This document shows, one piece after another, positions 5,129-56,532 of a stretch of DNA of 64,000 nucleotides; within the stretch, counting starts at the first letter, position 1, and each line of letters starts with the position of its first letter. Source of the DNA: Hydnum rufescens UP504 (lineage: Eukaryota; Basidiomycota; Agaricomycetes; Cantharellales; Hydnaceae); NCBI GenBank assembly GCA_014904985.1, contig MU128981.1, forward strand, positions 186,230 to 250,229, written 5' to 3'. Under the pieces are notes generated by a model. It saw only the letters and a list, made by a program, of their open reading frames with translations. It was not told the DNA's origin and ran no database searches. The position numbers and the translations under genes are program-made.

Positions 5129-5147
5129 CTCTTCTCTCCTCTCTTTT

Positions 5148-19400: not shown

Positions 19401-21164
19401 TCTGCTGAAAATACTCCAATCCTGCTGTTTCAATGGTGACTACTGGCCAGTCCAATGGTGCACTGTGTGATTCCCCTGGTGGAGTGGATTGTCCTGAGAC
19501 ATGTCAGGGGTTTGGCAGCCAGCTCGAGGGCAGTCAGGGTGACTCCACCATAGGGTCATTTTGGTGCCTTGCTGCAGAAGGTCAAGCCATGACATGGGAT
19601 GAAAATGGTGTTCTTATGCCATCTCCATCACTGACTGGACTGGTAGACTGGGCCTCCCTCCACAAGGATGAGCTCTTGAGGCATGTGATTCAGAATATGC
19701 ATGTGTATACTGATTTTTGCATCTCACTGCTCTGCATTCATGCTGATTTCCATTCCAGGTCAAGGGAATCAGGTGCATAGTTTTGATAGATATGAATGGT
19801 CATTAGCATATACAAACAGTCGCCATCCATTCCAGTTCTTTGGTCATTGGGAACATGGAAGGACTACCAATGATATGTACATGCTGGCGCAGTATGGCCC
19901 CAAAGACACCATACTTAAAGAACCTCCTGGTGTGATGCCCCAGGACTTCACCCATATCCCCATGACTTACAATAAATCTGCTCCATACTGACCTTACATC
20001 CAATGACTGCCCAGTGATCCCAAGCCCTTTTCAACAGAGCTTGCAGTCAAAACTTCTAGTGGCTACCTCCTATCATCACCTTACCACAAGAATGTTACAT
20101 ATTTCCTGGAGAAAAACAGAGCTCTGTACATGGATTGGAAATTAGTTGCTGAATCACTCAGTATCCCCATCAGCAAAGACTTCATGCCTCATCTACCCCC
20201 ATCCAGTACTTCCCTTGATACTCCCTGTTCTTTGTCTGTGCATCACACACAAGCTGTTTATGATAATCTCTGATGTGCATATGAATTTGGAGGCTATGCC
20301 TGTTTACTGGCTTGCCAATGTGTCCAGCAAGTTTCCCATACATTTGGAGTGTCACTCCCCAAAATGGGTGTGGATGAAACCCTTATTGGCACCATTCTCG
20401 TGTATCCAGTGTCACAGGCTGATTCGCAGTGGTTAGAGGAATTACTGGAGGATGGGTCCTGACCTTTGGTGTAGTCAAAGGTCCAATGCAGTCAGGGGTT
20501 AGGAGCATCAAAGAGTTGCCAGAAGGGGTGTGGGTGGCTGCTCCAGAAGGCAGAGTCCTCCCTACTAGTCGGCATATTGTCTGTGTTGAACACCATCTGG
20601 CACATATCCTGCATCCTGAACCCTGGCAGGCTCGACCCCCCAGTGGATATCCTGGAAATAGACTTCCAGGAAGTCATGAGCCTTTGGAACAATGCCTCCT
20701 CCACGAACTCTTTCCTGACCCCACATCAGTGAAGCTGGACCCAAGAATGATTGTGACAATCTGACATATCCTGGGAAGTGGTCCATTTCCTCCAAGCATG
20801 ACTGAAGTGGAAATTGCTTCTCAAATTGATCAGTTATCCCTTGAAGATAGCAATCCTTCCACACACATTCCTTCTGTACCAATCAATGATTCGGTGAATG
20901 ATGCAGAGGATCCATATGCCAAATTCTGGGATCAGTTGTCTAAGGGCCTACCTTACGATGACAACTCTGACATATCATCATATGATTTGACTCCCAGTGA
21001 TGGTGTGGTCAAGTCTGCTAGGGTGGCCAAGATAGGAGAGAGACAAAAGCAGAAATGAGTAGAAGCTGAGGCAATCAATGAAGCCACCCAGCTGCTTTCC
21101 AAGGCACAGAAAGGTGATTGGGAAGCCAAAGCTGAGATTATTCGGAAGATCAATGCTGAGCATG
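19401..21164 (+). pseudogene. A' - decayed copy of gene A of the A-B module
   Basis: Coding fragments in several frames: FDRYEWSLAYTNSRHPFQFF (about 19783), NVTYFLEKNRALYMDWKL (about 20090), LPKMGVDETLIG (20355-20390), DPYAKFWDQLSKGLP (about 20910). They line up in order with gene A at 51.1-47.2 kb. There the corresponding blocks are [29 protein letters not shown] and [13 protein letters not shown]. In both places this gene lies upstream of a B-type gene on the same strand, which supports the match. Stops and shifts separate the fragments, and an MITE variant cuts the 3' end. Function unknown. The LP-x2-GVD-x2-L-x-G match is the strongest single piece of evidence. Confidence 0.45.
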
Positions 21165-22092: not shown

Positions 22093-25000
22093 ATGGTTAG
22101 AACATGGGCCCACCCTGAATTGTTAGATTCATCACAATCATCCACCAAGCACCCACACCCCTCTATGAAAGGTTCCTCATCTAATCCAAAGCCACCCTCA
22201 CCTAAAGCTAAATGCCCTCTATCAAAAGCAAAAGTTCTTTCATCCAAAGGAACACCAGCTCCCTCTAGTGCAAAGACAGCTTCAAATGCACCAGCCTCTT
22301 CCTCCCCAGTGGTACCATCCAAGGCCTCGGATCCTCTATGGGCTGTTGCCAAGGCTCTGACATTTGCATCTACCAGCAGACAAGCACTTGTCTCTGTCAA
22401 CATTCATTCTTGTATCTCCACAAACCCACCCTCAAAGGACTCCACATCCTCTGTCCAGCATATTCTACCCTCATCTTCACCCAACTTGCCAAATCCCCTG
22501 GATATTACATCTGCAAAGAAAGACTGTGCCCTCACATCTGCTGATGTATTACCATTGCTTGATCAAGGCCGGAAACTATCCCACCAACTTCCTCTGAATG
22601 TCCCTGAATGGGATCAGAAGGATGATAGGGCTACATGTCTCTGGGATGTGAGACACCTGGAGACTATACCTTTGTCCTTCACAGGTGGTGGTGAAGACTG
22701 CGATGAGGACTGGGAGAATATGGATCCAGTTCTTAATCATGTGCTCCATGTGGACATACCAATGGATGTACTTGTGAAAGGGATCAGGAGAGGATCCAGT
22801 GGTACTCTTGGGATTGTAGAGGGGCTCACTTTTGTTGTTGAAAAGTGTGGCTTGAATCCAGTCTACTTTGGAACCAAGTTACAATGTCTTGTGGAGGCCC
22901 CAGAAGTGTGAATTAAGTGAGTAGTTTATTGGAGATTATATCTACACTGTTGCTTATTATCTGGTACTCCAGACTAGAGACCACCAATGTGACAAGTGAT
23001 AAAATTATGGCTCAGGAAGTCACCCCACCCTCCAATCCAAGTTTCAATTTGCAGGATGGATGGTCCCCTGAGTCCCCAGTCAACCACTCTGTCCCCATTC
23101 ACCAACCATCGCTGGAACCCCCTGACTGCCCTAGGGTGAAAGACTCCAGAGGACATCGAGACCATGATTCTGATGAATCGAACCCTAATTGGCAATCACC
23201 CCCTTCCCAGTCTCAAAAATCTCAACACCAAATGGTGTCATTTGATGATTCCCTTGATGATTGCAATGAGGATGATGATCATAGTGATGAAGACAGTGAG
23301 GATGGAGATGATACTGCAGACATACAACATTGAAGGTGAAAATTCTGGAATGATGAAATTGATGAAGTTGTAGAAATGTTCCAGTTTGAAGAGATGAAAG
23401 TTAAACCATGTGCCCAGCGCCTGGGTTGTACTGTCACATGCTTGATGAGAATTGGGAAATGGTCACTGAATATGAGTGAGTGCCGACAGCATGGGAATCC
23501 TTGGAATGCATACCTCAACCTTCTCAAAAGTTCATGATCTTGATGTCACAAGTTCCCTTCATTTCTCATTCTGATCTCTGGAACATAGAGAAAGATGAGT
23601 TTGTGTCAAAGTCAGAAGTGTGCAACTCATATGCAAAACTCAAAAATGATATGGGTGGGAGTGATACTGAAGCCTGGGTGGCAGAGATGGAGCATTTGAC
23701 ATCTGAACTTTGTGGGAGGAAGACTGTGGTAGGAAAGAAGAAAGGAGAATCAGGAGGGAATGTGGCAAAGCTCATGGAACAGACACAGCACCAGTGGAAT
23801 GCAGATGGAAAAACTTTGCTGAACACTGGCATCCATACCTTCTACATGATGGTCTCCGATATGGCATCTTCATTGGCTGCTCATAGTCAGAATACCTCCT
23901 CTATGAACTCACCCCAAATGGAATCATGGTACAAGTCTCACTTTGACCCCACCCAGCACATTGGTGATGTCTACAAATACATTCTTGCTCAGCAACTGCA
24001 GTCGAAGGAGGTTGAGGCCTTGGAAGAAGGAGAGTCACACTGGTGGCATATAATGGAAACACAAGACATGCACCATATGAAAGCTGCTTGTGCACAGAGA
24101 ATCCACAAGCTCCTGGGCCCCTATATGCTGGCAAAGGTCAAAGTAATGAAGTGGATGGAGATACCAAAGTTGTTGAGGCTTAATTGACTTCAGTTGGAGG
24201 GGCCTCCTACTGTGGATGAATTCCCACTCTTAGGGAGTTGGATAGCTGATAAGTACCAAATGTCCCACTGGAACAAGATGTACAAGGCCTTTACTTGTCC
24301 TGAAGATCGTTGGATCTGCCTAGAAGAACTCCCAGAGTCTCCTCTTGACTCTGATGAGTCCATGTTGCTGGTCATGATTGATCACCATGGGCAAGTCCAG
24401 CATACCATTGGGAGTGTAGATCATGCTAGAGCTTCAAACGACTGGTCTGGGGGTGCCACACTGGGGGGAGAAGGAATCAACAGTCCAGTTCTGGATGAAG
24501 TCCAGGAGGAGAATGTGGAGAGCACAATGGGGAAATGGAAGTATAGTGAATTGGGTAGAAGTCAGGAGTCTACAGGAATTGGGCCTGGTCATGCAGCTGA
24601 GGATGCTGGGGAGCATGACAGTGATGTAGAGGAGGATGAGAGGCCAGTGAGAAGGAGAAGGAAGTTATGACTCCCAAGAAGATCAACATCTACAATTCCA
24701 GACGAACTCGACAAGTTGCCAACTCCTCTTTCTCCCAACTCACTCATCTGTGCTCAGGCTAACCAGAGCCCTCCACCTTTTCTTGCAACAACTTCTGCAT
24801 CAAGCCATGTAGGAGCCACAGTACCTTTGGTCAACAGCTGGGTTGTGCAACTACATAGGATGCCAACATATTCAATGAACTCAGGGGCCTCAACACCCTT
24901 GGATAATTTCCCTACATCTATGTCTCCACCTATACAAGTTCTTGGGGATAGCTCAGCATCATCATCTTCCACTCCCAACTCCAGTCCTGACATGATGAGC

Positions 25001-25132: not shown

Positions 25133-25869
25133 ATACGAGACTACTCATGTCCATATCATTCCATTCCTATCATAATACATTGCTCTTGTCATCATTAATA
25201 GTGTTCTAAGTTTTCAACATGAATGTTAGGTTTCTAGTGAGGTTTAAGGATCTGCCATTCAAGTGTGCAAGTTCCCCAAGTTGGGCCCAAAGACTGTAAG
25301 CCACTGGGTATCAAAGACCCTGAGTTGGACCCAATTATGTTCCATATTGCTTGGGACCTAGTTAGGTATTAAAAATGCCTCATTTTTCAACCTAAGGTAG
25401 GTGTCATAACTGGCTGACTGAGGTGGTTGCCACATTGAGGTTTGGCATAAAAAGGTGGAATTTAGGGTGGCCTGGTGAAGTGCTGTGGAGGAACAATAAA
25501 TTGGCTCATGTGTAGGTAAAGGAATGATGTGGATTCATGGATTCTAGACATATGGGATTCAGGCTTGTTCTCAAATGAATGATGGCATGGGAAGTGATGT
25601 CCAGATTGACATGGAAATTGGTTCATTTATTTGAAAAATCATCCTTGGATAGGGTTTGCATGTAGTAGGGATTTGTCCCTCCAACACTGGATGAGGTTGG
25701 ACGAGGCTGGATGAGGTCACATGAGGTTGGATGAGGCCAGGCAAGGTTGGATGAGGCCAGATGAGGTTGGATGAGGCCAGATGAGGTCATATGCATGGGA
25801 AGTGGGCATGAAAAGAGCAAGGTCATATGAGGTTCCATGAGTAGAGGGGTGGGAGCTGGACATACTGAT
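25133..25869. other. Intergenic with a 10-bp minisatellite
   Basis: No gene seen. Bases 25688-25790 are a tandem array of 10-bp units such as GGATGAGGTT and GGATGAGGCC (about ten units). The array lies where the 3' end of the hAT transposase gene and its terminal repeat should be, so the hAT element is truncated here. Confidence 0.7.
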
Positions 25870-37261: not shown

Positions 37262-37394
37262 GGGGTTTCACACTGCAGGAATTTGGTGGGAATTTGGCAG
37301 GAATCAACACTGGAATCAGGCAAGAATCAAGATGAGAATGTCAAATTCCAGAGTGAATTCTGGGTTCATTCCTGGCTCAGCTTGAAACCCCCCT
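37262..37394. repeat. Small foldback repeat
   Basis: About 130 bp from GGGGTTTCACACTG to CAGCTTGAAACCCC, inverted ends of about 14 bp, with a TTA at the left end (37259-37261) and a TAA close to the right end. It could be a PIF/Harbinger-type MITE, but the duplication is not exact. Confidence 0.4.
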
Positions 37395-37688: not shown

Positions 37689-38834
37689 ATGGATTGCATA
37701 CATCAATTCCTCTCTGTAATATGGAACACCCAAGTCCTTTTTTTGAACAATACTGTCCCTAAAGTTGGACAGCTTGATCTCATCCTCAATTTCTACAAGC
37801 TTGAGCATACAGCTCACTTTTGGAGGAACCTTCATGTGGCTCCAGATACCTTTGATGCCCGACTTGGTATGATTGAGGATCATGACAGCTTCCAGACCAC
37901 AAATGATCTCCAACCCCAGCAGCAGCAAATCCCTGTTTCCTCCCAACTTACTATAACACTATATTGACTAGGGCATTTTGGGAATGCTGCCTCTGTAGAA
38001 TCTATTGCACAATGGGCTGGGTGTTCTGCCAGCACAGTTGTTGTATGTATGCAACAAGTCTCTGGTGCTGTCACTTCATTACATGACACTGTGATATGCA
38101 AACCCACTGCAGGGGAGAAGGAAGCAGCACAGAATTGGGTGGAGGAACAGTCATGCTTGGCATGGCATGGTGGCTACTGTATGGTTGACAGGATGTTAGT
38201 CCCATTGTCTGATAAACCAGGAATGCATGGCAAAGCCTATTTTGATTGTAAGTCACACTACTCGCTTGGCCTCCAGGTACATCCTTCATGTGGGGTGGTT
38301 TGATGACTTCAACTCATACTTTACACAGGTTATAAACATGCCCAACCTATGTATTATTGACTATGTTCTTGGTCCAACAGGTAGCATGCATGATGCCACA
38401 GCATTTGAGCTTTCTGATATGGCCAAGGACCCTACTGCCTGGTTCACCAATCACAAGTGGGTATGGGCAGACTCAGCATATGCTCTCCAGCCATGGTGTA
38501 TTGTACCATATAAGAAACCACACTCGCTTATCCAAAACAACAAGACATTTAATTACTACCTCTTGAAGGTGTGCCATCAGTCATTAGCTTGCCCATAGTG
38601 GCTTGAGCATTCACCTCATTTTTTTTTCAGATTCAGATTAAATCTGAGCACACCATGGGGATGCTTAAAGGCCACTTCTCTTCACTTTGTGGCCTCCATC
38701 AACAAATCACTAGTGTGTGTGACCACCTCCTTGCACTCAAGTGGGTGGAGATATGTCTGGTGTTACATAATGCAATCCTTGATATCAAGCAAGGTTGTGA
38801 AGATGAAGATGCTTTCACAGCACATATGCTCTGA
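37689..38834 (+). pseudogene. PIF/Harbinger transposase, one premature stop
   Basis: Exons 37689-38276, 38329-38568 and 38631-38834, with two short GT-AG introns, give one continuous frame. It reads LHVAPDTFDARLGMIEDH, LGHFGNAASVESIAQWAG (helix-turn-helix-like), YCMVDRMLVPLSDKPG (first catalytic Asp, normally DGT), GPTGSMHDATAFELSDM (second Asp), WADSAYALQPWCIVPY and IKSEHTMGMLKGHF (catalytic Glu), ending VEICLVLHNAILDIKQ. An in-frame TGA at 37965-37967 falls where Arg or Trp is expected (ITLY*LGHFG). This is a DDE transposase that would insert at TTA/TAA sites. Apart from the stop and the D-R change it is nearly complete. Confidence 0.88.
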
Positions 38835-39079
38835 GAAGGTATGACTGCAAATGGAGATGATGGGCATAACCCTGATGCTGAGGAGAATGTGCCTGCCCCC
38901 CACCAGGTCTCACCTGGAGAGTGACAATGACATTGATTAAAGGGGGAACTATTTTATGCACTTGGGTAATGTGGTGATACGTATATGGATATAGTAACCA
39001 ATCATGCCAATTGGTTACACACTGTTCATGTTGTAAGAGTTTGAGATCACATCTGTTGAGGTCCTTGGCTTTTGCCTCA

Positions 39080-40014
39080 AGGTCAGCTTCTCATTGATGT
39101 AGGGTTGCCAAAAGAAGAGAGAGAGGTGGTGTGAGAGAATCCATTTGAAGGTTGTGATTGGTGATGGTATGACTTAACTGGTCAAGAAGTTCTGCATTGT
39201 CCTTTATATCCTCCTTTCACTTCTCTTCATACTTGTGTTGGATCTCATCAAGTTTCTGTGCTGCATTGTACTCACGATCTATAATTGCTTGTCAATAGGA
39301 TGGCCATGTGCAGTAAGAGTTGGCATTTTTACCAGGTCACAGTATACTGATTTTTCGAAGGCTGCAGGGTGCATGAGGAGGCTGGGAAGGAGAGTAGGAC
39401 CAATGGGAAGGGTGATACAAAGAACAGGTGCTTTTCAAGGTGAGAGATCCTGGGGAGAGTCTGAGGATTCATGCAACTGCTGCATGGTAGGGGTTGTCTG
39501 GTGACTGACAATGTTCTTCTGAATCAATTCAGGTTCTTTTGAGGGTTGAGTGGGAAGAGGAATGGATGGAGGAAGTATAGTGCATGGTCTGGGGATGCAA
39601 TGTGAGGTGAGGGTCAATGGTTCACTGGGTTTCAAGCCCTGCAAGTGGCTGCACATTGGTAGAGGATTCATTGATATTGTAATTCTTGACAATAGCATGC
39701 AAGGAGGAGATAGAGTTGGGCCAAAAGGTCTGATTTGTTGTTAGTGATGTCCTTTTCAGTTGACCTGCATTCCATACCTCATTGGTTATGTTTTGTTCCT
39801 TTTTGACTTGAGATGAAAGGAAGATGTCCCCATCCAGGTTGAGTTCTACAAGTGGCATGGGTGGAGTTGGAGAGGGAGCAGGCATTTGGATGTATTCAAA
39901 CATGTAGCTTTGAACAGAGGTCATGGTTGAATTGAAATGAGCAGAGTCAGACATGTTGAGAGAGGATGGCTTTGATGAGGTACAATGGATGTGGAAAGCG
40001 GGCTTAGGTGTCAT
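39080..40014 (-). pseudogene. Accessory ORF convergent to the Harbinger transposase
   Basis: On the minus strand from 40014: DSAHFNSTMTSVQSYMFEY, a Pro-rich part, DIFLSSQVKKEQNITNEVW, then frames 39698-39435 and 39511-39329. Further on comes a charged helical tail (NAAQKLDEIQHKYEE near 39270-39215). Frames change twice, by introns or decay. Harbinger elements usually carry a second gene for a Myb/SANT-like protein that helps the transposase enter the nucleus. The position fits, but I see no clear Myb tryptophans, so this is inference from context. Confidence 0.35.
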
Positions 40015-40756
40015 TGGTTAGTCATTGTGCCATTTTTATACTTGTAGGGGCTTACTATACTTGCATTTGATGTTATTTGGCCATTCCTTGTTGTAGTTCA
40101 GATATCAGCTGGGATAATTTAGTCAACAGGTTGATGGAGTTGTTGTGTGTGGATGATAGATACTGAATGGAATGAGAATGAGAAGATGAATGGTTGCCAG
40201 AGTTTGTTACACCATATTATTAAGTTAGACTTCACAGCAGTCAGTCAGGAGTGCAGAGGATTACATAGCCATATAGAGAGAGGAACCAGAAGGGGAGGGG
40301 TGTTGATTTTTGATGTGGGTGCAGGCAGGCAGGTCAGCCATATAGCCTTAGCTCAAAAGGAGTACCATTTTGACATGTTGTCTGGGCCTGAGAGGCTTAA
40401 ATTGGGGTTGATGTCAAGTGATGATCAAAAACTGAATTTTGACCTTGGATGGATGGTTTTGACATCAAATTTGACATTAACCAATGTCAATGGCCTCAAC
40501 CTCAAAGACTTAACAAGATGGAGTTCAACACAAGGGCTATACACATTAAAGGATAAGAATTCAAGTACATTAATCTTCACTATCTATGAGGGCTCTATAT
40601 AGACATGACCAAGGGCCTCTACTTCACAATCCCAAGTGATTGTCTGGGGTGTTGTAAATATATTTCATAGATCCAGGTGAACAAGACAAATCCAACAAGC
40701 CCATGAGCACCCAAGTGGGGCAAGATATGAGGGATATTGAGTGGGAGGGGAGGAGA
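40015..40756. other. Unassigned; one unrecognised open frame
   Basis: A 151-codon + strand frame (40147-40602) has no recognisable motif and I do not support it as a gene. Confidence 0.35.
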
Positions 40757-41590
40757 TGAGGAACAGTGAGATCAAAAATTGTCAGAACACCTTGAGAGTG
40801 GGGGTGTTGAAAAGCTGCAATTTGGGCACATAGAATGCACCCACACACAGCTTGAACAACAACCCCCTTCCCCTTGGGGGACCACATGAGGGCAGGGGGA
40901 GAGGATGGAGATGGTGAGATGAGGAGTGATTGGACTGTTTTGTAAATAGGCTTGAAAGATGTGGACGAATGAGGCGATTCCAATATTTGAGGATTCCAGG
41001 TGATGTTGAGTGGGAGGGCAGGAGGAGATGAGGAACAGCATGGCCAAAATTGTCGGATCACCTTGAGAGTGGGGGCATTGAGAAGCTGCGATTTGGGCGC
41101 ATAGAATGCACCCACACACAGCTTGAACAACCACCCCCTTCCCCTTGGGGGACCACATGAGGGCAGGGGGAGAGGATGGAGATGGCATGATGAGGAGTGA
41201 TTGGACTGTTTTGTAAATAGGCTTGAAAGATGTGGACAAACAAGGTGATTCCAACAAGCCTATGAACACCCAATTTGGTTAAGATTTGAGGATTCCAGGT
41301 GATGTTGAGTGGGAGGGCAGGAGGAGATGAGGAACAGCATGGCCAAAAATTGTCAGACTACCTTGAGAGTGGGGGTGTTGAAAAGCTGCAATTTGGGTGC
41401 ATAGAATGCACCGACACACAGCTTGAACAATGACCCACTTCCTCCTGGGGGACCACATGAGGGCAGGGGGAGAGGATGGAGATAGTGAGATGAGGAATGA
41501 TCAGATTGCTTTGTAAATAGGCTTGAATAATGCAGACAAACAGGACAAATCCAGGCTGGTCAGTCACGGGGGGACCTAATTTAGGTACCA
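40757..41590. repeat. Tandem repeat, about 272-301 bp unit, three copies
   Basis: Units begin near 40757, 41029 and 41330 at 'gaggaacag' and share CATAGAATGCACC, CTTGGGGGACCACATGAGG and TTTTGTAAATAGGCTTGA. The minus strand stays open through the units, which explains overlapping ORFs of similar sequence. Another copy lies at the window start. No coding function inferred. Confidence 0.85.
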
Positions 41591-43085
41591 ATTTCGGGGC
41601 AGAAAATGGTACCTAAGAGGTCCGCCCAAAACCTTATGGCCGAAATCAGGCCATTTCAATTCAGTTTTTGGGCCATCTGTCGGCCAATCCATGGCTGTGC
41701 TAGATTATTTATTATTATTATTATTACTACTATTATTATATACATATTATCCCCCCTGGGGTCTGCCACCACAGGGGGGGGGGGCGTGGTTCCTGCCAGT
41801 CACGCACCTGCATATACCCACCACACCTGCCGCAGCAGGTGGGGTTCATATGCCCTGGTCAGGGCTGTTCCATTTGGGCGCTCCCTCGAGGGAGCGGGTT
41901 TTCATTCATGGGCTCGTTCGCGGTTTTTGTTTGCAAAACCAGGGTGTCATTTGCGGGTTCCACGGGGGGGTTCCGTGTGCGTTCTGAGTCAGGTCTATAG
42001 ATCAATACCAGAGATTCCACAGTGTCTATGAGCAACATTAATGGCCAACACGAAAAAGAGGGCAGCCTTATGCTGCTGCTTTTCTCGCGGCACAAGAGCT
42101 ACAAGAGACGCCGACTAAGAAAAAACAGATACACACATACCTTCGTAACCCCACAACCCTGCAGGTGTAGGGTACGGACCATGCCATGCGCCGCTCGATC
42201 CATAAGCCCGGTGATACATATGGCGGCTCGTACGCACCGAGCGGTTCATATGGGTCCACCCGTCATTCAGGGGTCGATAGGCGGCGGGGTTTAGCGCACA
42301 CGGGGGTTCTTTGTCCGGCCGGTATTCATGTCACAAGGCGCGAGTTGAAACCTACAAAATATTGATTTTTCAAATTAGTTTTACGGAAATAAGGGGCCAT
42401 GGCAAAAGAGCAGCTTTCAACGTGGCTCTTTTGGCGTGGCTGTAGCTACTGAAGGGTGACTTTACCTGATATAGAACCACCACACCTCTGGGGCCGGGTG
42501 TGTGATTCCTGTGCCCTCGTTTGGCGCCGCTGCATTTGGGTTTGGTGTGGCTTCGTTCATCTGGCCATTGCTGTGTCGGAATTGGGTACTTGTGGCTGCA
42601 TCGTATCCGCGTTTGCTGTGTCATGATTGCTGCTGTGCACACTCGCTGTTTGGGCTTCTCATCGTTTCATGCGGTTATCGTCCTGCACTTGGAGGGCCCT
42701 AAGTCTAGAATAATGCATGTCAGCTGGAAAAAAAAAATTCCAAAGCAGCGCAAAAAGAGCAGCTTACGCTGCTCTTTTTGCGTGCTGTAGCTACTGGGGG
42801 GGGGGGGGACTCACATTATATAGTACCACACACCTGCCGTGGCAGGTGTGTGTTCCTGGGGGCCTCATTTGGCGCATTGCTGAGTAGTCGCGTTGCCATG
42901 TGTCACATTACCGTGTATCATGTCTTCGTTTGGCCATTGCTGTGCAAACCAGTCAGCCTAATTGTATATCTAGTTAGGCCTTTTGCCTTGCTTTTATTCA
43001 ATCTAAGAGCGGGTTTTTAGGTGGGGGCCCCTGGGGCCCACTGGGTGATTTCATGGCATGAGACAAGGGGCCCCATGGGCCCCTT
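41553..43085. repeat. Double-hairpin mosaic repeat, copy 1
   Basis: The order is: a 70-bp module with GGTACC palindromes (41553-41622), an (ATT)n run (about 41702-41745), hairpin pairs, a 'tctagttagg' block, and a GC hairpin (43023-43084, GGGGCCCCTGGGGCCC pairing with GGGGCCCCATGGGCCCC). Type 1 hairpin: 42749-42782, CGCAAAAAGAGCAGC, loop TTAC, GCTGCTCTTTTTGCG; a decayed one is at 42401-42435. Type 2 hairpin: 42827-42852, CACACACCTGCC, loop GT, GGCAGGTGTGTG; weaker ones are at 41821-41844 and 42479-42504. It shares all modules with 54831-56532. No protein-coding signal. Confidence 0.8.
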
Positions 43086-43245
43086 GCTCTGAACTTGCCT
43101 TCGGGTATCAGCCCATGTATGAGACCAAGAGATTCAAGGCCTTGTTCAAGACCAGTCCAAAAAGGTACCTTCAATCAATATTGATTGCATGGGTAGGACC
43201 TAATTACAAGGTTATATTATATGTGGATTAATAAAATTGGAAGTA
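43086..43245. other. Gap between the hairpin repeat and gene B
   Basis: Short AT-rich stretch containing TATTATATGTGG. It could hold the gene B terminator. Nothing specific seen. Confidence 0.3.
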
Positions 43246-46200
43246 CTAGGGTTTGGAATGACGAAAGGAAGGGATTGTTGAATGGGAGTAATTATTGTAG
43301 AGAATTATTGAAGATACGAGTCCCAGGCACTTCCTGATTGGAATCCATTTGGGTCGTACATGTCCCCAAGGCCCATAGCCTGAAGTATCAAAATTGTTGA
43401 TGCCAGAGGGGAACATTCCAATGTTGGACTGCAGAGTGCCATTGTCCAAATGTGAACCCATTGCTGCGACGTCTGAATCAGATACAAAGAAATCATGAGG
43501 GTTGAAGGCCGAGGAACTTGAAGCATGAATATTGCCATTCGATCCTGCTGCAAAATTGGAGTGTAGAGGGGCAGCATGCCAACTCGTACTTCCTGTATTC
43601 AGGTGGACAACGGCGGATGAACTCAAGGGTCCAGCACCAATATTGGTATTAGGTGCAGTGCGAAAATCGGGATATGACGAAGATGTGGCACATCCACTTG
43701 TACTCGCAGGATTGGAGTTGAAGTTTCCAGGGCGAAGGATGGGCATGGCTTCTGCATTGGCCTCAGAGTCACTAGACTCATCATTTGTAGGTACCGATAT
43801 AGCACGAAGCCTTTCCCTTTCCCTTCGAGGGCTTTGAAGATACATTGCAACTGCTTAGACCTGCCACACGGCACAGGCAATACACCAGGCTGCTCTGTTG
43901 CTGCTCTGGATTCTCCCATAGAGTCGACTGCACTACCCGCATCTCGCACACAGTAGACGGTATCATTGTTCCGATCAATGATCAACACAACGTCATCATC
44001 AGCCATCTTTCTCATGCGACACCCCATGCCTCCACCTTGATCAGGCAATCGATTTCCCTTGTGGAACTGAGTCACAAGAAACCTCCACTGGGATGCATCC
44101 CATTGCTTGTTCGTACGTCGCGGATGTGGGGCAGGGCATTCAGTTTCAAGAGGCCATCCAATGATTCGGATACGGTATTGAACAAGGAGGCTGAGAAACC
44201 GTACCCAAGGTACGATGGATGGAAACCAGGTGTAGCTGTTGGAAGTGAACAAGTTCTTGATGTATTTCGAAGCCGCGGAGTATGCTGAGTCACGTCGCTT
44301 GAGTTCGTTATCGCGCTCTTTTTTCTCTGCCTCTTGATGCCACTTTGCAAGACTGCTTCGATCGAGCCTCCGATGCAACACCTTCACGAAAAGCTCATCG
44401 AGTGATTTTTGAAGATTGAAGCCGCCCTCGATCAAGCTCTCAATCTCGGGGGAGCTGCAGATGATGGCATTCTGGGCATGTGCTGCATGTGCATTGGACG
44501 TCCACACACCATAATCATGATGGTGTGAATATCGAACTTAGACATGTGTCCCATCTCGCCCTTGAAGTACTTCTTTTGCCGACTCATGAACTTGGCCACC
44601 TTAGTGCCGCTCGTGAGTTTGACATCATTCTCCACCCTTGAGGATTGAGCGACAGTACGGAGTTCATCAAGCCAATTTTCGAGGGCCTGAGAGTCGCCAT
44701 TGAATGATTCCTTTTCTTTGATATACGCATCCGTGAGCTCGGCTTGGGAGACTACGAGACCAATGGAGAGTAGTGAATTAGTACATTAGTTATACACCAA
44801 AAACTTTGAGGTCTTACGTTTAGGAAGTCCGTCCATTTTTCGTTTCCTAGCATACCCATTGAACGGATTGGGTGATCGCCTAAGGGGTATAACCGTGCTG
44901 AGATTTGCCAAACGTTGGAGTTGGTGAAGTGGACGATTGGACTTGTCTGCCAACGCCTGCAGAGCATCATTAAAGGCCTTGCAAAGTGTTGCCACAGAGT
45001 CACGAAGGTCGTTAGGAATTGGACCCCCATTATACGGCTCTCGCGGCGGTTTAGGTGCATCTGCACAGTTTGCATCGGTCTCATCGTCCTCCCAATTACA
45101 ATCCGCATCGTCATCAATGTCGCTGCTGCCGCCATCGTCAGAGTCAGACTGAGGGCCGTTGATGCTCGTTTCGCCGCGGCGCTGCATTTGGCTGGCAGAA
45201 ATCATTCCAACCCTTGGAACCTTGGGCACCAATGCTGTTGGAGCTGCTGGCCGTGCCAAGTCCAAGGTATGCGTTGGAGATGGCCCAGATGGAACGAGCG
45301 GGCATCTGCGAAGCGCCTTCAGCAGCTTCAAGATCTTGATCTCGAACTGCTCTAAGTTGAGACCCCGCTTGTCGGCGAAGAATGCCAGCCCTTTGATGAT
45401 GCCAAGAGCACCACAAGGACCTCGTCTCATCTCCTCCACAAGGCGGGATACGGACACCGCTTGGAAGACACGGTTCAGAGTACGGTCAACGTATTCATAA
45501 TCATCCAGGGATCTGCCCCTTCATCGGGTAAGGCCAGTAAAATATTATCGAGGGCGTCGGCATCCCAGACATTAAGGAAGTCACCAGGACGTGCCACACG
45601 AATACTAGGGTGTAGGCGGTGCGCTAACTCTTGGGCGTCATCAAGGATCTTGCGAGGATCAGAGATCCTTCGAGCCTCTTCTAGCAGAGTGCTGGGTGTG
45701 TCCGATACTGGCGAATGAGGGCGGATCTCAAGATTGATGAGTTCTGGTCCGGCAATATCGGGAGGTGAAAGATAACGGGGAGACGAAAGATGATGTTGGG
45801 GCGAGAGGGCTTTAGGGGGCTCAATCCGCCTGGGTGGGATCCTGACATAGGGACGAAGGCTGTGTATAGCAGAGGATTTCGGACCAACGATGCGATAGTT
45901 CGATTTCGCTTGCTTGCCACCCGGAGGTCCAGACTTGCCAGACTATAGGTAACTCATGAGACAAAGATGATAAATTAGAACCTGAAAAATCCGTACCTTG
46001 GGCAACTCCTTGTCATTTGAGCTGGTGTGCCCATCGGAAGACTTCGAAATAGCCAAGCGTTCGGCGGCGGGGCGTCTTAGCAACTTCGGTTTTTGGGAGC
46101 ATTCTCAATCTGCGATGGACAGTATAAGTCCGAGGTTGTAGGCGTAGAATAGAAAAGACGTACCACGTTCAGTGCCTCATATGTCTCATTCCGAGATGCG

Positions 46201-46531
46201 CCCATGACAGCAAAGTGTTTGATAGTACGACGAGGTGGTGGCTCCACTTCTTTATGAGTTCTCTAATGCAGAGCATGAGAACTGGACTGTAGAAGACCAA
46301 AAGTCTGAAAGCACTTACAGTCTTCAGAGCTCTATCTGCATCTGAGGACGTTGGCTCCTCAGATGAGCTGTCAATAACCTTGCGTTTGGTAGCACGGGTT
46401 GGCAGCTTCGACACCTTCGTTTTCGGAGCTTCCTCATCTGAGGCCCCGTTGGTAGAGTTCCGTCTGACAAGACGTCCTTGATATGTCTTTAGGTTTGCCT
46501 TCGATGAGGCCGGGACAGATTTATTCGCCAT
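43246..46531 (-). CDS. Gene B of the A-B module, unknown function
   Basis: Starts at ATG 46531 (MANKSVPASSKANLK). A basic, Ser/Lys-rich N-terminus (KRKVIDSSSEEPTSSDADR) is followed by several short introns (for example donor GTAAGTGC after RALKT). Main blocks: ILDDAQELAHRLHPSIRV, RRGPCGALGIIKGLAFF (near 45427-45380), an acidic Asp/Glu linker, SYSAASKYIKNLFTSNS-type helices preceded by KWHQEAEKKERDNELKRRD, VVLIIDRNNDTVYCVRD, and a Ser/Asn-rich tail, in all perhaps 700-800 residues. It matches B' (22.1-25.1 kb) throughout. I do not recognise a named domain. Gene A lies upstream on the same strand with about 0.7 kb between. A few frame changes are not explained by introns I can define. Confidence 0.6.
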
Positions 46532-47220
46532 TGGATCCAAGGGTGCTATTTTTCCAACTGCAACGTCTAAGTATTTCAGAAACGTTCCAAGTAGAAATAT
46601 CGCAGTTGAACGGCCTCCACGAAGGGTCGAATCGATGATGAGTGTATGATGAAGTACGAAGATGGTGATGATGAGGGAATCGAGAGGCGTAGGGATGAGG
46701 AAAGAACGGGAGGTGTATATAGGGTGAAAGTGTCGATATGCAGAAGTGAGGGTTGAGACACGAGAAGAAAACGAAGGCAGTTGATGCTTCCTGAATGACC
46801 TTTGCTCCCAATCGCACAATCCGAGAGGTCCAAGGAAACCAGGAACCTCCCAAGATGCAGTGTGAGCGGGTGGTGCAAGCAGTAACTCGTTGAGTTGTGA
46901 GGATTGTTGAAAAAGTGAAGCCAAGCCTTATCACTCTATCCGAGGGGCACAAGAAAAATCAGGTGCCTCTCAAGACCGAGTGAGACAAGGTCGCGAGGTG
47001 GTGGTTCGCTGAGAAACCTTCTGGAACTTGCCGGCCCACTTACGACAGTAACTTATAAGGTATGCAATTACAATTCTATTAGTCGAACATCTGTACATAC
47101 ACATATATGAAGAGGAAAATTTAAAAAAAAAAGAGGATAAAGAGGTGGGGAGGCGGAGAGGCAAAGAGGTAAAGAGGCAAAGCTATCATCTCGCCCCACT
47201 GAATATAGCCTCGTCCGTCC
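46532..47220. other. Intergenic between gene A and gene B
   Basis: The minus strand has open frames (46952-46521) without recognisable motifs. This stretch should contain the gene B promoter and 5' leader. Near 47110-47170 there is a purine-rich run with AAAGAGG repeats. Confidence 0.4.
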
Positions 47221-50200
47221 TCAAAAAAAGAAATGGGGCGGGGGAAGAACGGTCCCAATCGATGTACCATAGTCCAGACTCAAGGTACCCAAACGATTCC
47301 ATATGGCGGGGGCGGAAGGGCGGGAATACTGCACGTCGGGATCGAGCATTGCGCTTTGGCCAATCACACGAACCAGATCATCGTATGGACCATTTGTGCG
47401 GTAGAGTGGCACCCAGAATGGTGTAGTGCTCCGATCGTCACGAATAGCATGAGCACGCACAAATTGCGCCAACTGACGTCGCGTAGCGGTGTATTCCTCA
47501 TCAAGGGTGCGCACTAGCCATGCTGTGGTGAATTCGATTCGATCCATGATTTGTGGTGCACCAAGAGTAAAGCCCTCTACAGCAATAGGAGGGTACCGAT
47601 TCAATTCCAGCAGAGAGTATCGAAGGAACGTTTTTACGCTGGTCGCTGCAACCGGCAGGGGGAACGGATGGAACCGCCGCAAATCTCCAAGGTCCCTGTA
47701 TGGAGGTGCATTCTCCATCATTTCCGCGAGGTCCACAGGGGATTGCTGGTGCAAGTAGCACATCTGCACGTACTCTGGACACAGCACATAACGAAACGAA
47801 TCCAGCGCTTCCTGGCGGTCTACATGGACTGTGTTCGCTTCGTTGAAGGGCCACGGCCTGTGCTCAGGCGAGTTGCGAAGAAGGCTGAGCACAGCATCGC
47901 GTCTCTGCTCAGATTTGAAAGAAAGAAGAACCTTCTTCTTGTTACGAGCAGCACCTTTTGCCATCTTGTTCTTCTGCACCCGAACTCCTATCAGGCCAGT
48001 TGCCTGGAACAGCTCGAACAGCCGTGGAATGTCCACATCTTCAGTCACACCTGATAATTCAATGCGAAACCAGGTGGCCAGAGGGACAACTGGATCAACG
48101 ACAGCTGATCAACGACAGCTTGATCAACGACAGCTGGATCAATGACAGCTGGATCAACGCCAACTGGATTGACAACAGCTAAGTCGGTGGCAATTGGTTT
48201 GGTGGTGGCTGGATCGGCGGCAGCTGAATCGGCAGCAGCTGGATCGGCAGCAGCTGGATCGGTAGCAGCTGGATCGGCAGCAGCTGGATCGGCAGCAGCT
48301 GGATCGGCAACAGCTGGATCGGCAACAGCTGGATCGGCAACAGCTGGATTGGCAGCAGCCGGATTCGGCAGCAGCTGGATGCTGGATTGGCAGCAGCTGG
48401 ATCAGCGGTCTCTGGAATAGCACCTCCAGGAAAGGTAGAAAGGGTGGAAGGGCGACCAGGAGGCATTTGGGGCGCCTCGAATGAATCACTAGGAACGACA
48501 GGAGGGGCAGAAGGGTGAATCTGGAGGCAGTTGGAGTGCCTCGAATGAATCACCAGGAATGACAGGAGGGGCAGAAGGGCGGCCTGGAGGTGTTTGGGGC
48601 GCCTCGAATGAATCAACAACCTTGGTTGGACCATGAGAAGCACTCCACGAACGCTGGGCATGCCAAGAGCCAGAAGGCTCTGGCATTCGAGAAACAGGAC
48701 GACCACGAGAGCCAGCAAGATCGCTTCCAGGAGAGCAAGAATGGCGATGGCTGGAAGAGGGAGGGTGACGATCATGGGAAAGAGGCCGGTGACGATCGCG
48801 GGAAGGAGGGCGACGACGATCATGGGAAGGGGAGCGACGACGATCATGGAAGGGAGCGACGACGACGAGCGAGCGGAACGGCGGAAGGGAGATGAACGTG
48901 GACGAGGGCAGAAATGGCGAGGAGAACGCGAACGAGGGCGGAAACGGCGAGGAGAATGCGAACGAGGCCGATCATAACGACCACGACCATGCTGACCAAC
49001 CACAGTAGGAGAACGGGACCGAGTTGAACGCTGCTGTGTATATGATGGTCCCACAGTGACACGCAAGGACGAGGCCACACAACTGTCTTCAGGTTGTGGA
49101 AGCTCAATGCACGGAGTGGGTGGTGCACGCCGGTGCCATTCAGTCCACTCCGCAAGGAGATACTCCTCCAGGGGTGTGCGCCATACCCTACTCTTGTTCT
49201 GGGCAACTTGGATCATGGGGACAATGCGACCGTACTCAGCTGAAGCCCGGTCCGCGCCGCAACAGGAAGGTCCTTCTGCACAGCATCCCAAAGGGGGTCT
49301 GCCTGTGCTGCCGCCGCAATACGGGCCTTCCTCCTCTGCAACCTTGGATTCCAGTCATCGATAGACCCTTCTTCATCAGATGAGGAAGGGTCGGCGTTAA
49401 AGTCAGGCATGACGGCATCAACCAAATTCAAGTCCATTGAGCCAGTGGGTAGAGTTGGTTGTGGCGTGGGATCTTCGTGGCGGGGACAGCGAGGCAGCAC
49501 GTGGGAGAGGTACTGTGTCGCGAAGCGTAATGGTACCAGGACCCAAGACACGGGCGAGTGCTCCAGCCATATGACTGTCCACATCTCGAAGACAGGACTC
49601 AAACAGATCATTATAGAGGGCCCTGGATTGCTGGGATTCGTCCCCCCAGCCCAATCGGGAACTTGATGATCCAGGGTGATGGACGTTTAACCTCAGCCAC
49701 AGGCCACATCCTCCAGATTTCCAAAAATTCGCCACGAGCATCGCCAGTATCATGTTCGGTAATCTCTTTAACAATCGCCTGATATTCCAGGGCCGTAGCG
49801 GGTGGACAAGGATTAAGAGGACGAACGTCTTTCCCGTCCAAGATTCGAATGCCTTGGAGGGGGACACCATGGCGTTCTAATTCCTCGAAAGGAAAGTCGA
49901 CCTCAGCCATAGAAAAGAAAGCTCCCACAAGAGCATGATCGACTCCAAATCGTGGGAGCTCCAGACCAGCGACGAGAGCAATGTGGTCGATGGTCCGATG
50001 CATCAGAAGTCGACTAACAGCACGTAACTGGGCCTCTGCATCTTCGAGTTTTATAATCTCGAGCGGCATGTGGAATTTTGAGAAACTGGACGGGGTGGGG
50101 AGAGCACCATCACGTCCGCTCTGGATCAAAGAGTCAATGACGTCAGAGGCGCCACAGATTGATGATGAGGTCGGAATATCGTCGAGTCGTAAATTGAAAA

Positions 50201-51087
50201 ATTCTGCGGCTCCAAACCACAGCTGATGTAACTCGAATGCGTCGACGATGAGGTTCCGGATGTTCCGTAACCATACATTGTCGAAATACCAATCCAAGTG
50301 GTACGTGCTCTTTTTCATGGGCTGACGTGCTGGATATTGATGTTCAAGGAGATAGGGAAAATGTGGCGAGGCGTGATTGTACATGCGTCGCACGCACAGA
50401 ATGTCACCGTACGACCAAGTGGGAGAACGTGATGGCAACCATGACCTAGTGAGTCGGATAGTGTTGAATACGTCCGAGTCCCAACATCGATACAGCGACT
50501 CCTGGTATTTTGGATTAAACTCTGGGAGGCTGGGAAACAAAAGGCCAGAGAGATCGTCCACGTTCACGGGCCTGGGTCGGACGCCAATAAGGACGTCAAT
50601 TGAGCGGACAGATCTGAATCGTGGACAGTGTTGTTGTACTCGAGCACCCAGTCCTGAATGCAAACGAAGTGCTTGGAAGAGCTGGGGTGATCGCCTCTGA
50701 GAGCTGGAGATAATGTCACTATTAGTCCTTGAAACAAATTCTTGCCATGAAAGGAAGAAACTTACAAGACTGAACTTCCTTGAAATGATGATAGTATCGT
50801 TTGCCCATGGACGAAAATGCCTTCAGCACGTTAGCTGAACTAAGTGGCAGGGCAGGACCAAGGGATTCACCAAATCGCCACTGCGAGGGTTGGCCATCAT
50901 CATTGAGCTCGATGGGGTTGGGAGGAGGTGCTGGCAGAGAAACTTCAGACTTCTTTTTGAAGCTCAGGAACTTCTTCGTCCCCCTAGATGAGGAAGCAGA
51001 AGGGACAATGGAAGAGGACGATGCTCCCACAGTCGAGGGAATTGAGCTATCCATCGACGCAGTCGACTTCTTGGTCTTGGACTTCAT
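47221..51087 (-). CDS. Gene A of the A-B module, unknown function
   Basis: Probable start [15 protein letters not shown] at 51087. A Ser-rich basic N-terminus leads to [17 protein letters not shown], and an intron is likely near 50765-50704. A long frame (50663-49611) follows with [35 protein letters not shown] and [15 protein letters not shown]. After frame changes come [13 protein letters not shown], an Arg/Ser-rich stretch ([16 protein letters not shown]), a 15-bp minisatellite coding Leu/Pro/Ile/Gln, and a last frame (48048-47221) with [18 protein letters not shown] and [18 protein letters not shown], ending at 47221. Roughly 1100 residues if all are one gene. No family recognised. Frame breaks around 49.6, 49.25 and 48.1 kb may be introns, errors or decay. 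Confidence 0.5.
48093..48418. repeat. 15-bp minisatellite inside gene A
   Basis: About twenty units of AGCTGGATCGGCAGC and variants. The period is a multiple of three, so a gene A reading frame can pass through as a repeated five-residue peptide. Shorter imperfect repeats of about 70 bp (CGCCTCGAATGAATCA) follow at 48474-48612. Confidence 0.92.
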
Positions 51088-52499: not shown

Positions 52500-53360
52500 T
52501 GCTGCGTTGCACAATAAAGAGTTTGAAGTATTGTATTCCAGAAAATTACAGCCATTCAACAAGATACAGACTCAAGTCTTCCAAGCCTTGTACAACTCGG
52601 ATGACCAACGTCTTCATCGGTGCACCTACTGGTATCGGCAAAACCATATGCACTGAATTTTCTTTGCTGAGGCTCTGGTCAAAGTCTGATGCGCCTTGTG
52701 CTGTATGCATCGAGCCATATCAAGATGTGGTGGACCAACGAGTCTCTGAATGGCGGAAAAAATTTGGTAACCTGCAAGGGAGGGAGGAAATAGTCGGCCT
52801 AACCGGCGTGACAAGTGCAGATCTCCGCATATTGGAAAAAGGTGCCCGTGTATTCGTACATCCCGTTAGTGCCTCCGGAGGTTCGTTATGGAATGCTGAT
52901 CATCTTCGTTTATCAAGTGGGATATTCTCTCCCGCCGGTGGAAGCAGCGGAAGCATGTTCAGAACATTGGATTATTGATTGCAGACGAAGTGCAACTCAT
53001 TGGGGGGGGGAAATAGGGCCGACATGTGAAGTTGTTATCTCGGACGCACTACGTGTCTGCGCAAACCGAGATCAAGACTCGTATCGTTGCGTGTGGCGTT
53101 TCTTTGGCCAACGCTCGCGACTTAGATGAATGGATGGGCATAAGTACGCATACGATTTTCAACTTTGCCTCACGAATATATATCCTCATGATATTTATTA
53201 CCATTCCTTATGACAAACCCAATGCAGCGCCCGCCCACTTCCTCTCGAGGTTCATTTGCAAAGTTTCGGCATCCTGCACTTCCCATCACTGATGATTGCC
53301 ATGGCTAAGCCTGCGTATTTGTCAATTGTGGAATTTTCCTCCTCCAAGCCCGTTGTCATG
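52500..53360 (+). pseudogene. Fragment of a Brr2-like Ski2-family RNA helicase
   Basis: Readable blocks: [20 protein letters not shown] (Walker A, normally APTGSGKT), CIEPYQDVVDQRVSEW, EIVGLTGVTSADLRILEKG, then in other frames VSRTHYVSAQTEIKTRIVA and CGVSLANARDLDEWMG, and AMAKPAYLSIVEFSSSKPV. Their order matches the C-terminal helicase cassette of Brr2, the U5 snRNP helicase that unwinds U4/U6. The DExH motif II region is missing or scrambled (about 52870-53030), and stops and shifts interrupt the rest. It is a decayed partial copy, not a functional gene. Assignment to Brr2 over other Ski2-like proteins rests on SLANARDL and AKPAYL. Confidence 0.75.
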
Positions 53361-54323
53361 TTCGTCCTGTTAAGAGTTATAGTCTTTTAGGTAGAAACTA
53401 CTTGTATTCCGCGAGATATTTCTCGCTATATATACACAATCTAATATACTAGAATATACGAGTCTTGGTCAACTACACTCTATTAGCATTGACGCGCTAG
53501 ACGGACATAGGGGCTTCCGGATCTTTCCGGGAGATTTCCTTATCGGGATGGATCATTCCAATGTCAACAATGTCGATTGACTGCGTCTGATGTCTTGACT
53601 TACTGCTTGCTGGCGGCAACAAGGATCGGTTCCTGAATATCGAGGCTTCTGATCTGGAGCCGCACTTGAATCATATCACTGATAGTGGTCGCTGTTATGA
53701 TCCGGATGCAAATCTCACTACGCTATTGAACACCTCGTGAAATCTGTGGGCATCCATTCTGCTGTCTGTGTGCCCCAGATTTGAGCGGTCTGTATTCCTG
53801 TTACCACACGTGCCGGTGTCTCGTCAACGCGCTTCATTCCTCAATTCGAGTTCTTCGCAGAGTCTGTGGGCCAACATTCGGTTTGTCTGTAGGCCCCAGG
53901 TTCAAGCGACTTGCTCTTTCTCGCGATTTCCTGTTGCATCCTGGCTTTCTCTTTGACACCGACTTCCACATATCAGGTGCGTTTGGTTCTTCAACATTCG
54001 AGCTCGACATCTAAAGCCCTTCCACAGTGTTCCCGTCTCTCGTGTCCCACCTCTTGTGTTCCGCCTCGCGTTTTCCGCTTTTCATGTCCTCACCTCTCGA
54101 ATTTCCCAAATATCTCGCCTCTATCACAAACTTTGTGGACGAGCATTCTTCCTAGTCTGCAAATCCCATAATTAAGCGATCTCACCTATGTCCCCCAAGC
54201 ATATGGGCGATGCTCCAGGTGGATCGACAAAATGACTTCCGAGGCTCACGGAAGTGTAGATGAAGCCCCAGTGCATCAAATCCTCATCCCTCTTCATCAG
54301 CCCCTTCCAACACATACTCCAGT
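53361..54323. other. Unassigned
   Basis: No gene or repeat recognised. A TGTTAAGAGTTATAGTC start at 53368 with a TATATATACA box at 53434 resembles the beginning of a Copia-type LTR, but no matching end or target duplication is seen. Confidence 0.35.
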
Positions 54324-54833
54324 ATGCTCAAGAAGGGCCTGAAAACCTTCCAGGCTGTGATTGCCAAGGAGACTAGTAGTCATAAGGTTTTGAAGAAACC
54401 GATGACTGCCATCAACACTGCCAACCCCAGTCAACTTCCAACCGCAATGCTCTCTCAAGCCAGCATGAAACCCATTACAAGTGCAGCGACAGCTTGGAAA
54501 TTCCATGGTGGAACTGGCACCTTCATAGCTACTGTACCGGTAAATCAGCTGGCAGCACCACAAGCAAGCATCACCAAGCCACGCTACCATCAGAAAGTCC
54601 GGATTTCCGAACCTTCACAACCTTCCCATGGTACCCATCCATCTCTATTTTCTTCTGATGGATTTGAAGATGAATTGGGATCGGGTGGCGATGAACCATC
54701 TGGAGCACCTTCGCTGATGGCAACTGAGCAGCACTTTGTCATACATTATCCTAACTATGCGACATGTTTGGATAACTTCTCAGTTGAGAACAAGCTGTCC
54801 TGCCATGCACAATTCAGTCAGCCACAAATGTAG
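54324..54833 (+). CDS. Hypothetical protein
   Basis: A 169-codon frame. Lys/Thr/Ala/Ser-rich N-terminal half (MLKKGLKTFQAVIAKETSSH), then DGFEDELGSGGDEPSGAPSL and an ordered-looking end (HFVIHYPNYATCLDNFSVEN). I recognise no family. It stops exactly where the second hairpin mosaic begins, and its stop (TAG, near 54831) overlaps that repeat's first block. It might be a fragment cut by the repeat. Confidence 0.3.
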   Translation: MLKKGLKTFQAVIAKETSSHKVLKKPMTAINTANPSQLPTAMLSQASMKPITSAATAWKFHGGTGTFIATVPVNQLAAPQASITKPRYHQKVRISEPSQPSHGTHPSLFSSDGFEDELGSGGDEPSGAPSLMATEQHFVIHYPNYATCLDNFSVENKLSCHAQFSQPQM

Positions 54834-56532
54834 GTCTAGTTAGATATTATGAGCCTTGCATTTATATAGTCTAACTAGAGGTTTTGATGCTGGGGCCCCT
54901 GGGGCCGGCTAACCTGATTTCTGTGATTCAAGCAGGGGCCCCCAGGGGCCCCTGTGTGGGACTTAGACTGGCCACAGAACTTCAATATATTGGGTTAGGC
55001 ATTGGTCAGTCACCTAAGCTCAGACTTGCACAGTGGGCCATACGGGCTTATCGGGGATGATCACAATTATTTATTATTATATTATACCCCCTCTGGGGTG
55101 ATGTTTCATCTATAATTATTATTTATTATCATTACACCACCTGGTCATGGGTGGTAGGTTCCATTCCTATTTACTTCTTTATTTATTTATTTATTTAAAA
55201 ATTCAATTTAAAAAAAAACATACCACACCCCCCTCAGCGGGTGTGGTACCGGCCAATTCTCCCTTGGGGGGTTGGGCGGGGGTTCGACCGGCTCATCAGT
55301 GGCCATTTGGGGGCTCGGCGGTCCACCATTGCGCAGATTGTTTCGACTGGCCACGCGTGTCCGTCGGGGGTGGGTTGTTGTTTCGGAGCTTTGGATTTGA
55401 TCCTAGAATAATAGCGGACATTAGTAAAAAAAATTCGAAGTGATGCAAAAGGAGCAGCTTGCGCTGCTCCTTTTGCGTCACTGTACGTATAGAAAATTTT
55501 AAAAAAATACCTTATGGTACCATACACCCGCCTGCTGAGGCGGGTGTGGTACTCGTTTTGGCCCCCTGTCGCGTAGTTTGCATATGGGGGCAGGTGGTGT
55601 GTTTCGCGGGTTTCGGTTCGGATCCTAGAATACATTAGTAAAAAATTCAAAAGCAATGCAAAAGGAGCAGCTTGTGCTGCTCCTTTTGCATCACTGTATG
55701 CATAGAAATAAAATAAAATTTAAAAAAAAAACCATGGTACCACCCACCCGCCGAAGCGGGTGGGGGTACTCGTTCGTACCGCTTCCACTCTTGGTTTTTT
55801 GTATGGAGCTCACGTGGGTTTGGGGGTTTTTGGGGGAGCAAGATCCAGAATAAAAAAAGTTAGGTTAGTAAATAGTTAAAGGCGACGCAAAAAGAGCAGC
55901 CTTCGCTGCTCTTTTTGCACTGCTGTATCTACGGGGGAAAGGAACTCATCTTAGGTGACCACACACCCGCTGCAGCGGGTATGTGGTCTGGCTCGTTTCG
56001 GTATCATGCGTTGGCACAGGGTGTCGTTTGCTGTCGTGCATTCGTAGGGGGTATGGTGGGCCTTTGGTTGCCCCTTTGTGTGGGTCCTATTCGCATGGTC
56101 GCGAGGTGGCATTTGGGGCTTCCGCGTTGCGTTCGTTGTTGCGGGTTTGCGTTTGTGGCTGCATGGTTTCACGGGTTTAGGTAGGACATCTTAGGCTAGA
56201 ATAAAAATAAAGTGTCAGTTGAAGAGTAACAACCGCGCAAAAAGAGCAGCAACTGCTGCCCTTTTTGCACATTTGTAGCTATTAAAAGAAGACTTACCAA
56301 ATATGCCACACACCCGCTGCAGCGGGTGTGTGGCACTCTACATTCCTGCTGTTCTTCTCCTTGTTTTGTGATTACCACACACCCACCGAAGTGGGTGTGT
56401 GGTTCCGTCTGCACTTTGTGGTCTTGCATCACGGGTTTCGTCTGGTTAGCTGATCGTGGCAGGCTGGTCAGCCATATTTGATACCTATGATAGGTATCAA
56501 ATCTCGGGCACTATTTGGTACCTAAGTAGGTC
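54831..56532. repeat. Double-hairpin mosaic repeat, copy 2
   Basis: The order is: a 'tctagttaga' block, a GC hairpin (54891-54953), (ATT)n and (ATTT)n runs, alternating hairpins, and a GGTACC module (56461-56532). Type 1 (GCAAAAGGAGCAGC/GCTGCTCCTTTTGC family): 55445-55476, 55657-55690, 55887-55918, 56237-56268; loops TTGC, TTGT, CTTC, AACT. Type 2 (CACACCCGC/GCGGGTGTG family): 55221-55248, 55524-55547, 55743-55764, 55957-55988, a perfect 30-bp palindrome at 56305-56334, and 56374-56403 with stem CACCCAC/GTGGGTG. Stems differ by compensating changes. Spacings between type 1 hairpins are 212, 230 and 350 bp. Confidence 0.85.

Follow-up and report, generated by a model that had tools for sequence, protein, structure and literature searches.

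A recurrent gene pair in Hydnum rufescens as the probable accessory module of KDZ DNA transposons

In the fungus Hydnum rufescens UP504, two neighboring genes that we call A and B recur many times across the genome in the same order and on the same strand, and we conclude with high confidence that they constitute an accessory gene module of KDZ (Kyakuja-Dileera-Zisupton) DNA transposons. The copy studied here lies in a 64,000-nucleotide stretch ("the window") that corresponds to positions 186230-250229 of contig C73 and thus reaches the contig end (250229). In addition, our data make it likely that the whole element follows the plan terminus - B - A - divergent CxC1/KDZ transposase gene - terminus. 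The literature that we searched yielded no paper joining KDZ, Hydnum, and such a gene pair. Contigs, loci, and proteins are designated below by our own C, L, and P numbers.

Recurrence and order of the A-B pair

A preliminary description of the window had reported A followed by B, both on the minus strand, and this order and strand were borne out. We searched the genome (63.19 Mb in 539 contigs) for further copies; these searches score the best candidates only, and all lists of places are lower bounds. The merged lists hold at least 183 A places, at least 168 B places, and at least 185 KDZ places. Within 8 kb downstream of A and on the same strand, B was found at 90 of the 183 listed A places (other orientations: 6, 3, and 0), and a divergent KDZ match was found within 20 kb upstream of A at 48 of them (other orientations: 9, 9, and 5). 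A smaller, earlier count had given 40 of 69 places for B (versus 0, 0, and 0) and 19 of 69 for divergent KDZ (versus 1, 0, and 0). That count took in 69 of 113 A rows, 88 of 129 B rows, and 51 of 93 KDZ rows; the rest were minor fragments at already-listed places or KDZ rows of lower identity. The larger count combined those lists with later searches, including those for third-tier A and B; 2 third-tier A rows, 6 third-tier B rows, and 5 rows of another search (fragments at listed places) were omitted, and from one earlier search only the 33 places judged new were added. The tiers referred to are classes of copies by identity, roughly ~62-97%, ~40-64%, and below ~35%, and third-tier B and A queries returned 116 and 137 match rows, respectively, in their own genome.

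Contig C73 itself carries another set at 8764-30114, consisting of KDZ (-), A (+), and B (+).

Boundaries and gene plan of the element

The preliminary description had proposed that the flanks of several copies be aligned in search of common ends, and such an end was found. Among 17 fetched loci with at least 85% identity to the window B, 8 end at window positions 42943-42945, 8 stop short, and the remaining one (L034) has the terminus, yet its match runs on to 42799. The sharp terminus at 42945 is followed by mostly unrelated flanks: when 200 bases outside the terminus were compared in 10 flanks, the sole sizeable likeness was that of the window to L034 (78% over 114 bases), and L027 and L034 have 28 bases in common. 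The termini on the B side and the KDZ side are both close to the motif CA-N4-R-GTCAGCCA, and the element has short, imperfect terminal inverted repeats (TIRs).

On the other side, homology among the relatives extends upstream of A, first across part of a BRR2-type helicase gene and then across a divergent gene with CxC1 and KDZ domains. In the relative on contig C264, the first part of this gene matches CxC1 (E = 1.7e-7) and its main part matches the KDZ transposase (PF18758, E = 9.2e-50); in L063 the frame carries CxC1 at residues 294-358 and the KDZ domain lies in L065 on the same contig. Beyond the transposase gene, homology halts at a matching terminus in both C264 and C25. By arithmetic from the window and C264, the tier-1 element measures ~15.5 kb; in the third-tier element of contig C6, only the KDZ-side terminus was readable, by eye. 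The unit in the window spans 42945 to beyond 54810 and is thus larger than the A-B module first described. Four elements could be read at both ends, and in two of them (C249 and C90), listed matches to B, A, and KDZ lie between the two ends, which are flanked by identical 8-bp sequences, i.e., perfect target duplications. The suggestion that the two genes move together is accordingly upheld by their recurrent order, by the common end with mostly unrelated flanks, by the position of both genes inside terminus-bounded units, and by these duplications; the link of the pair to a KDZ transposon was not part of the preliminary description.

Several observations weigh against the proposed association. 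No listed partner was found for 93 of the 183 A places and 78 of the 168 B places, and among the 90 A-B pairs only 28 have a listed divergent KDZ match within 20 kb (other orientations: 4, 2, and 2). Set against the possibility, raised in the preliminary description, that B routinely occurs without A nearby, the pairing is upheld only in part, since at the 78 B places the 8 kb upstream contain no listed A; many of these may be due to truncation of the copy, to the end of a contig, or to the scoring of a limited set of candidates. No target duplication is present in C374 and C200, the other two elements read at both ends. The window copy lacks the KDZ catalytic domain, neither CxC1 nor KDZ domains being present in the window; it also shares flanking sequence with L034, and these two copies are therefore not independent in this respect. 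Finally, a search of the window for a KDZ gene belonging to a second pair (A'-B', see below) found none, and the KDZ side of that pair was not located.

The many A or B places without a listed KDZ match nearby, together with the missing catalytic domain in the window copy, would also fit a different explanation, in which A and B form a transposon of their own, or a pair of host genes, and simply lie next to KDZ elements or were hit by them. We regard this as very improbable, since in C249 and C90 the genes B, A, and KDZ all lie between a single pair of termini, the 8-bp flanks of which are identical, and since the orientation of KDZ relative to A is strongly biased (the 48 against 9, 9, and 5 noted above).

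The coordinates of all features in the window are collected in Table 1. Additional KDZ-type terminus motifs occur on the plus strand at 40326, 41552 (one mismatch), and 56460, and perhaps represent truncated or non-autonomous nested elements. Another feature of the window is a repeat of ~1.1-1.4 kb present in four copies (2363-3747, 4079-5132, 13279-14573, and 14571-15955). The same repeat is inserted within A of L007, where both junctions are seen and ~3 bases of A are repeated, and it adjoins A, with one junction visible, in L010, L013, and L045.

Table 1. Features of the A-B unit and of the second pair in the window (window coordinates)
Feature	Position	Strand	Basis
B-side terminus (CAAACCAGTCAGCC..., one mismatch to motif) and GGGGCCCC-rich subterminal stretch	42945..43085	+	~71% like the terminus at 54810; common end in relatives
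Gene B, decayed copy, several exons	43246..46531	-	129 own-genome match rows for the C-terminal piece, fragments included; relatives P0001-P0032, P0042-P0059
Gene A, decayed copy	47221..51087	-	113 (C-terminal piece) and 108 (N-terminal piece) own-genome match rows, fragments included
A, C-terminal domain	47224..48096	-	ferredoxin/RRM-like strand/helix order in a low-confidence model
A, Arg/Ser/Pro-rich (RS-like) middle	48490..49040 (limits approximate)	-	P0033 and P0039 sequences; window open reading frames, shifted frames here
A, N-terminal domain, most of it	49614..50564	-	holds the 12-residue stretch shared with A'; codon-position constraint between subfamilies
Captured BRR2-type RNA helicase fragment	52574..52867 (by eye to ~53400)	+	Pfam DEAD, E = 5.2e-9; PDB BRR2-type, best E = 1.5e-24; also in L061-L064
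Start of KDZ transposase gene, cut at 54810	54176..54810	+	91% identity to residues 1-212 of the L063 frame
Terminus of a second KDZ-type element interrupting the first	54810..54964	+	97% to the ends of second-tier B loci L036 and L040; exact motif
A', recognizable part of N-terminal domain	19944..20456	+	A of contig C6, 25% over 182 amino acids, E = 6.9e-11
B', RRGSSGTLGI block	22705..22869	+	42% over 55 amino acids to B, E = 4.6e-9
B', main conserved region	23480..24445	+	relatives of B, best E = 2.5e-36; found by the whole-genome search as C73:209805-210698
B'-side KDZ terminus (CACCTCAGTCAGCCA)	25411..25425	-	exact terminus motif; outer end 293 bases past the B' open frame

Proteins encoded by A and B

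In the window copy, the frames of A and B are both split over several frames. In a close relative on contig C131, however, the main exon of A is a single open frame of 1192 codons and is annotated as a 1350-amino-acid protein (P0033, 100% identical to the query that we read from C131), and A is therefore one gene. The long protein consists of an N-terminal domain, an acidic linker, an RS/Pro-rich region, and a C-terminal domain. The same layout is found in P0039, a JGI metagenome protein of 1218 amino acids with 43% identity over the N-terminal region of A, and the RS-rich region is seen directly in both P0033 and P0039. Contig C131 also holds two A copies arranged tail to tail in inverted orientation (37097-44375), with no B listed on that contig.

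Protein-database searches (two for B and one for A) scored ~7,990 candidates each, so that distant relatives may be missed. Proteins matching A and B of the window include those of H. rufescens UP504 itself, and all matches in these searches are unnamed "hypothetical" proteins. At E ≤ 0.001, the relatives listed for A were only 8 Hydnum proteins and a single JGI metagenome protein, and those listed for B came only from Hydnum and from unnamed ENA/JGI metagenome proteins. Two gene models (P0017 and P0022) fuse the C-terminal domain of A to B, and a third (P0012) joins a KDZ domain to a piece of B. That KDZ domain was the only Pfam match above the cut-off in 10 B proteins; 10 A/B pieces and 10 further frames of the window gave none, and scanning the window for Rfam families and tRNAs likewise gave no matches. 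The earlier statement that no known domain is evident thus holds for both A and B, as judged by Pfam, PDB profiles, and weak fold models.

The model of the A C-terminal domain has a mean pLDDT (predicted local distance difference test score) of 42 and shows, at low confidence, the order strand-helix-strand-strand-helix-strand at residues 10-89. The RRM was tried as an identity for A and found no support from Pfam RRM or the PDB profile search. For B, the whole-protein model is likewise of low confidence, with a mean pLDDT of 52 and helices predicted at residues 250-261, 271-289, and 296-322 (block means of 63-92 from residue 251).

The second pair, A'-B'

The preliminary description had also noted a second copy of the pair on the plus strand, and the order and strand of A' and B' were as reported. 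The match between B and B', which was thought to cover their whole length, proved to consist of two matching blocks, but the likeness is not even over the full length, the second block being weak in the direct comparison within the window (24% over 110 amino acids, E = 0.003). Similarly, A and A' are only weakly alike when compared directly (E = 0.043 over 51 amino acids). Their likeness reaches beyond the shared GVD motif through an intermediate sequence, but in A' no more than the N-terminal domain is recognizable, and a search of the window for the A' C-terminal domain did not find it.

Constraint and CpG decay

Comparisons between tiers show that both genes differ in the manner of proteins under amino-acid constraint. 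The window A differs from that of L054 by 0.38, 0.30, and 0.53 per site at codon positions 1, 2, and 3, respectively, and the window B differs from that of L036 by 0.35, 0.19, and 0.54; among close copies inside one tier, the codon-position pattern is not clear.

In seven tier-1 copies, TG/CA replaces 12.6-37.4% of the CpG bases of L043, whereas the corresponding loss at other C/G is 0.07-2.5%. The comparison of L043 with L045 (contigs C131 and C133) gives a CpG loss of 26.5% versus 0.07% at other C/G, and by eye, the in-frame stops of the copies are mostly TGA. Because this CpG-to-TG/CA decay is what deaminated methylated CpG would leave, the elements appear to be methylated. KDZ passengers, chiefly TET/JBP, have been connected with how DNA methylation evolved in fungi. 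In the whole H. rufescens genome, with its at least 185 KDZ places, we found a single match to TET/JBP (PF12851), which at 24 bits falls under the cut-off of 34.9.

These observations bring up the idea that A and B constitute an anti-silencing system by which KDZ elements would be shielded from CpG methylation, as has been proposed for TET/JBP in other fungi. The CpG-specific decay of the seven copies and the lack of a TET/JBP match above the cut-off speak for it, but no enzyme-like domain was found in A or B, nothing links either to methylation, and the existence of decayed copies means that any protection is incomplete. On balance, we consider such a system distinctly unlikely.

Possible roles of A and B

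We tentatively suggest that A and B bind nucleic acid and thereby assist transposition or the escape of the element from silencing. The KDZ transposase would carry out cutting and joining, and A and B, produced from the element's other side, would assist it. Nucleic-acid binding seems the most likely contribution, B acting through its helical, possibly HMG-like region and A as an RS-rich, possibly RRM-like protein; their target might be the GGGGCCCC-rich subterminal DNA, or they might counter the silencing of the element. The fold comparisons count against this proposal, as none of their matches confirms nucleic-acid binding by either protein: Foldseek returned a best E of 1.1 for the B model, and for the A C-terminal domain a best E of 8.4e-3, to a PII-like protein, many matches being ferredoxin-like and all of them that weak or weaker.

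A protein with a "divergent HMG domain" was reportedly described in fungal KDZ elements by Iyer and colleagues in 2014. Were B that protein, half of the pair would already be known. The three helices predicted at residues 250-322 have a spacing that looks HMG-box-like by eye, and a profile comparison sets HMG helix 1 in register, with P = 0.076 (control P = 0.49). However, neither the 10 B proteins nor 7 slices of the region gave a Pfam HMG match, the 5 HMG_box matches listed in the genome include none at a listed B place, the PDB profile search returned no HMG chain, and the profile-profile probability was 0.7%. The Foldseek and VIA-align lists for the B model also contain no HMG chain, which we do not count against an HMG fold. 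Taken together, the identification is possible but doubtful.

Regardless of their biochemical role, two proteins without a recognized domain accompany the KDZ transposase across several diverged subfamilies, in a genome that has no TET/JBP above the cut-off, and tens of "hypothetical proteins" in the Hydnum proteome are accounted for as transposon genes. If the pair does the presumed work of TET/JBP, it would give a eukaryotic transposon a second way of coping with methylation; if its contribution is to transposition, it would make for a multi-protein KDZ system. That a KDZ lineage in Hydnum has swapped TET/JBP for a new two-protein module (A with an N-terminal domain, an RS region, and an RRM-like part; B helical and HMG-like), held under selection in deeply diverged subfamilies and required for KDZ transposition or for evading silencing by CpG methylation, is an unlikely scenario.

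Comparison with known systems

The published comparisons below draw on three papers (PMC12477816, PMC12730594, and PMC12810828). Fungal KDZ elements are said often to carry accessory genes (PMC12477816), and with the basidiomycete KDZ transposons that do so, the Hydnum element has in common a CxC1+KDZ transposase gene and a large size. The KDZ domain (PF18758) with a CxC domain in the relative on C264, the termini at both ends, and the 8-bp duplications in two of four elements are features of the KDZ superfamily. An 8-bp target duplication is also described for Zisupton (PMC12730594), and CxC1 together with 8-bp duplications for KDZ1 of Cryptococcus neoformans, the TIRs of which are 241 bp long (PMC12810828), unlike the short, imperfect ones seen here. 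The CA..TG ends fit Kyakuja, but Kyakuja is reported to have 7-bp duplications and no TIR (PMC12730594), and the 8-bp duplications and short TIRs of the Hydnum element do not fit that description.

As for the proteins, A resembles SR-type RNA-binding proteins in its RS-rich stretch and, in a weak model, in a ferredoxin-like strand order, but differs from them in having no Pfam RRM match and in its large N-terminal domain of no recognized kind. In other mushrooms, TET/JBP is described as a known passenger of KDZ elements (PMC12730594), whereas the Hydnum genome has no TET/JBP above the cut-off and its element carries the A-B pair. In bearing a passenger beside the transposase, the Hydnum element is nevertheless like the TET/JBP-positive Kyakuja and other transposons (Kojima 2025, PMC12730594).

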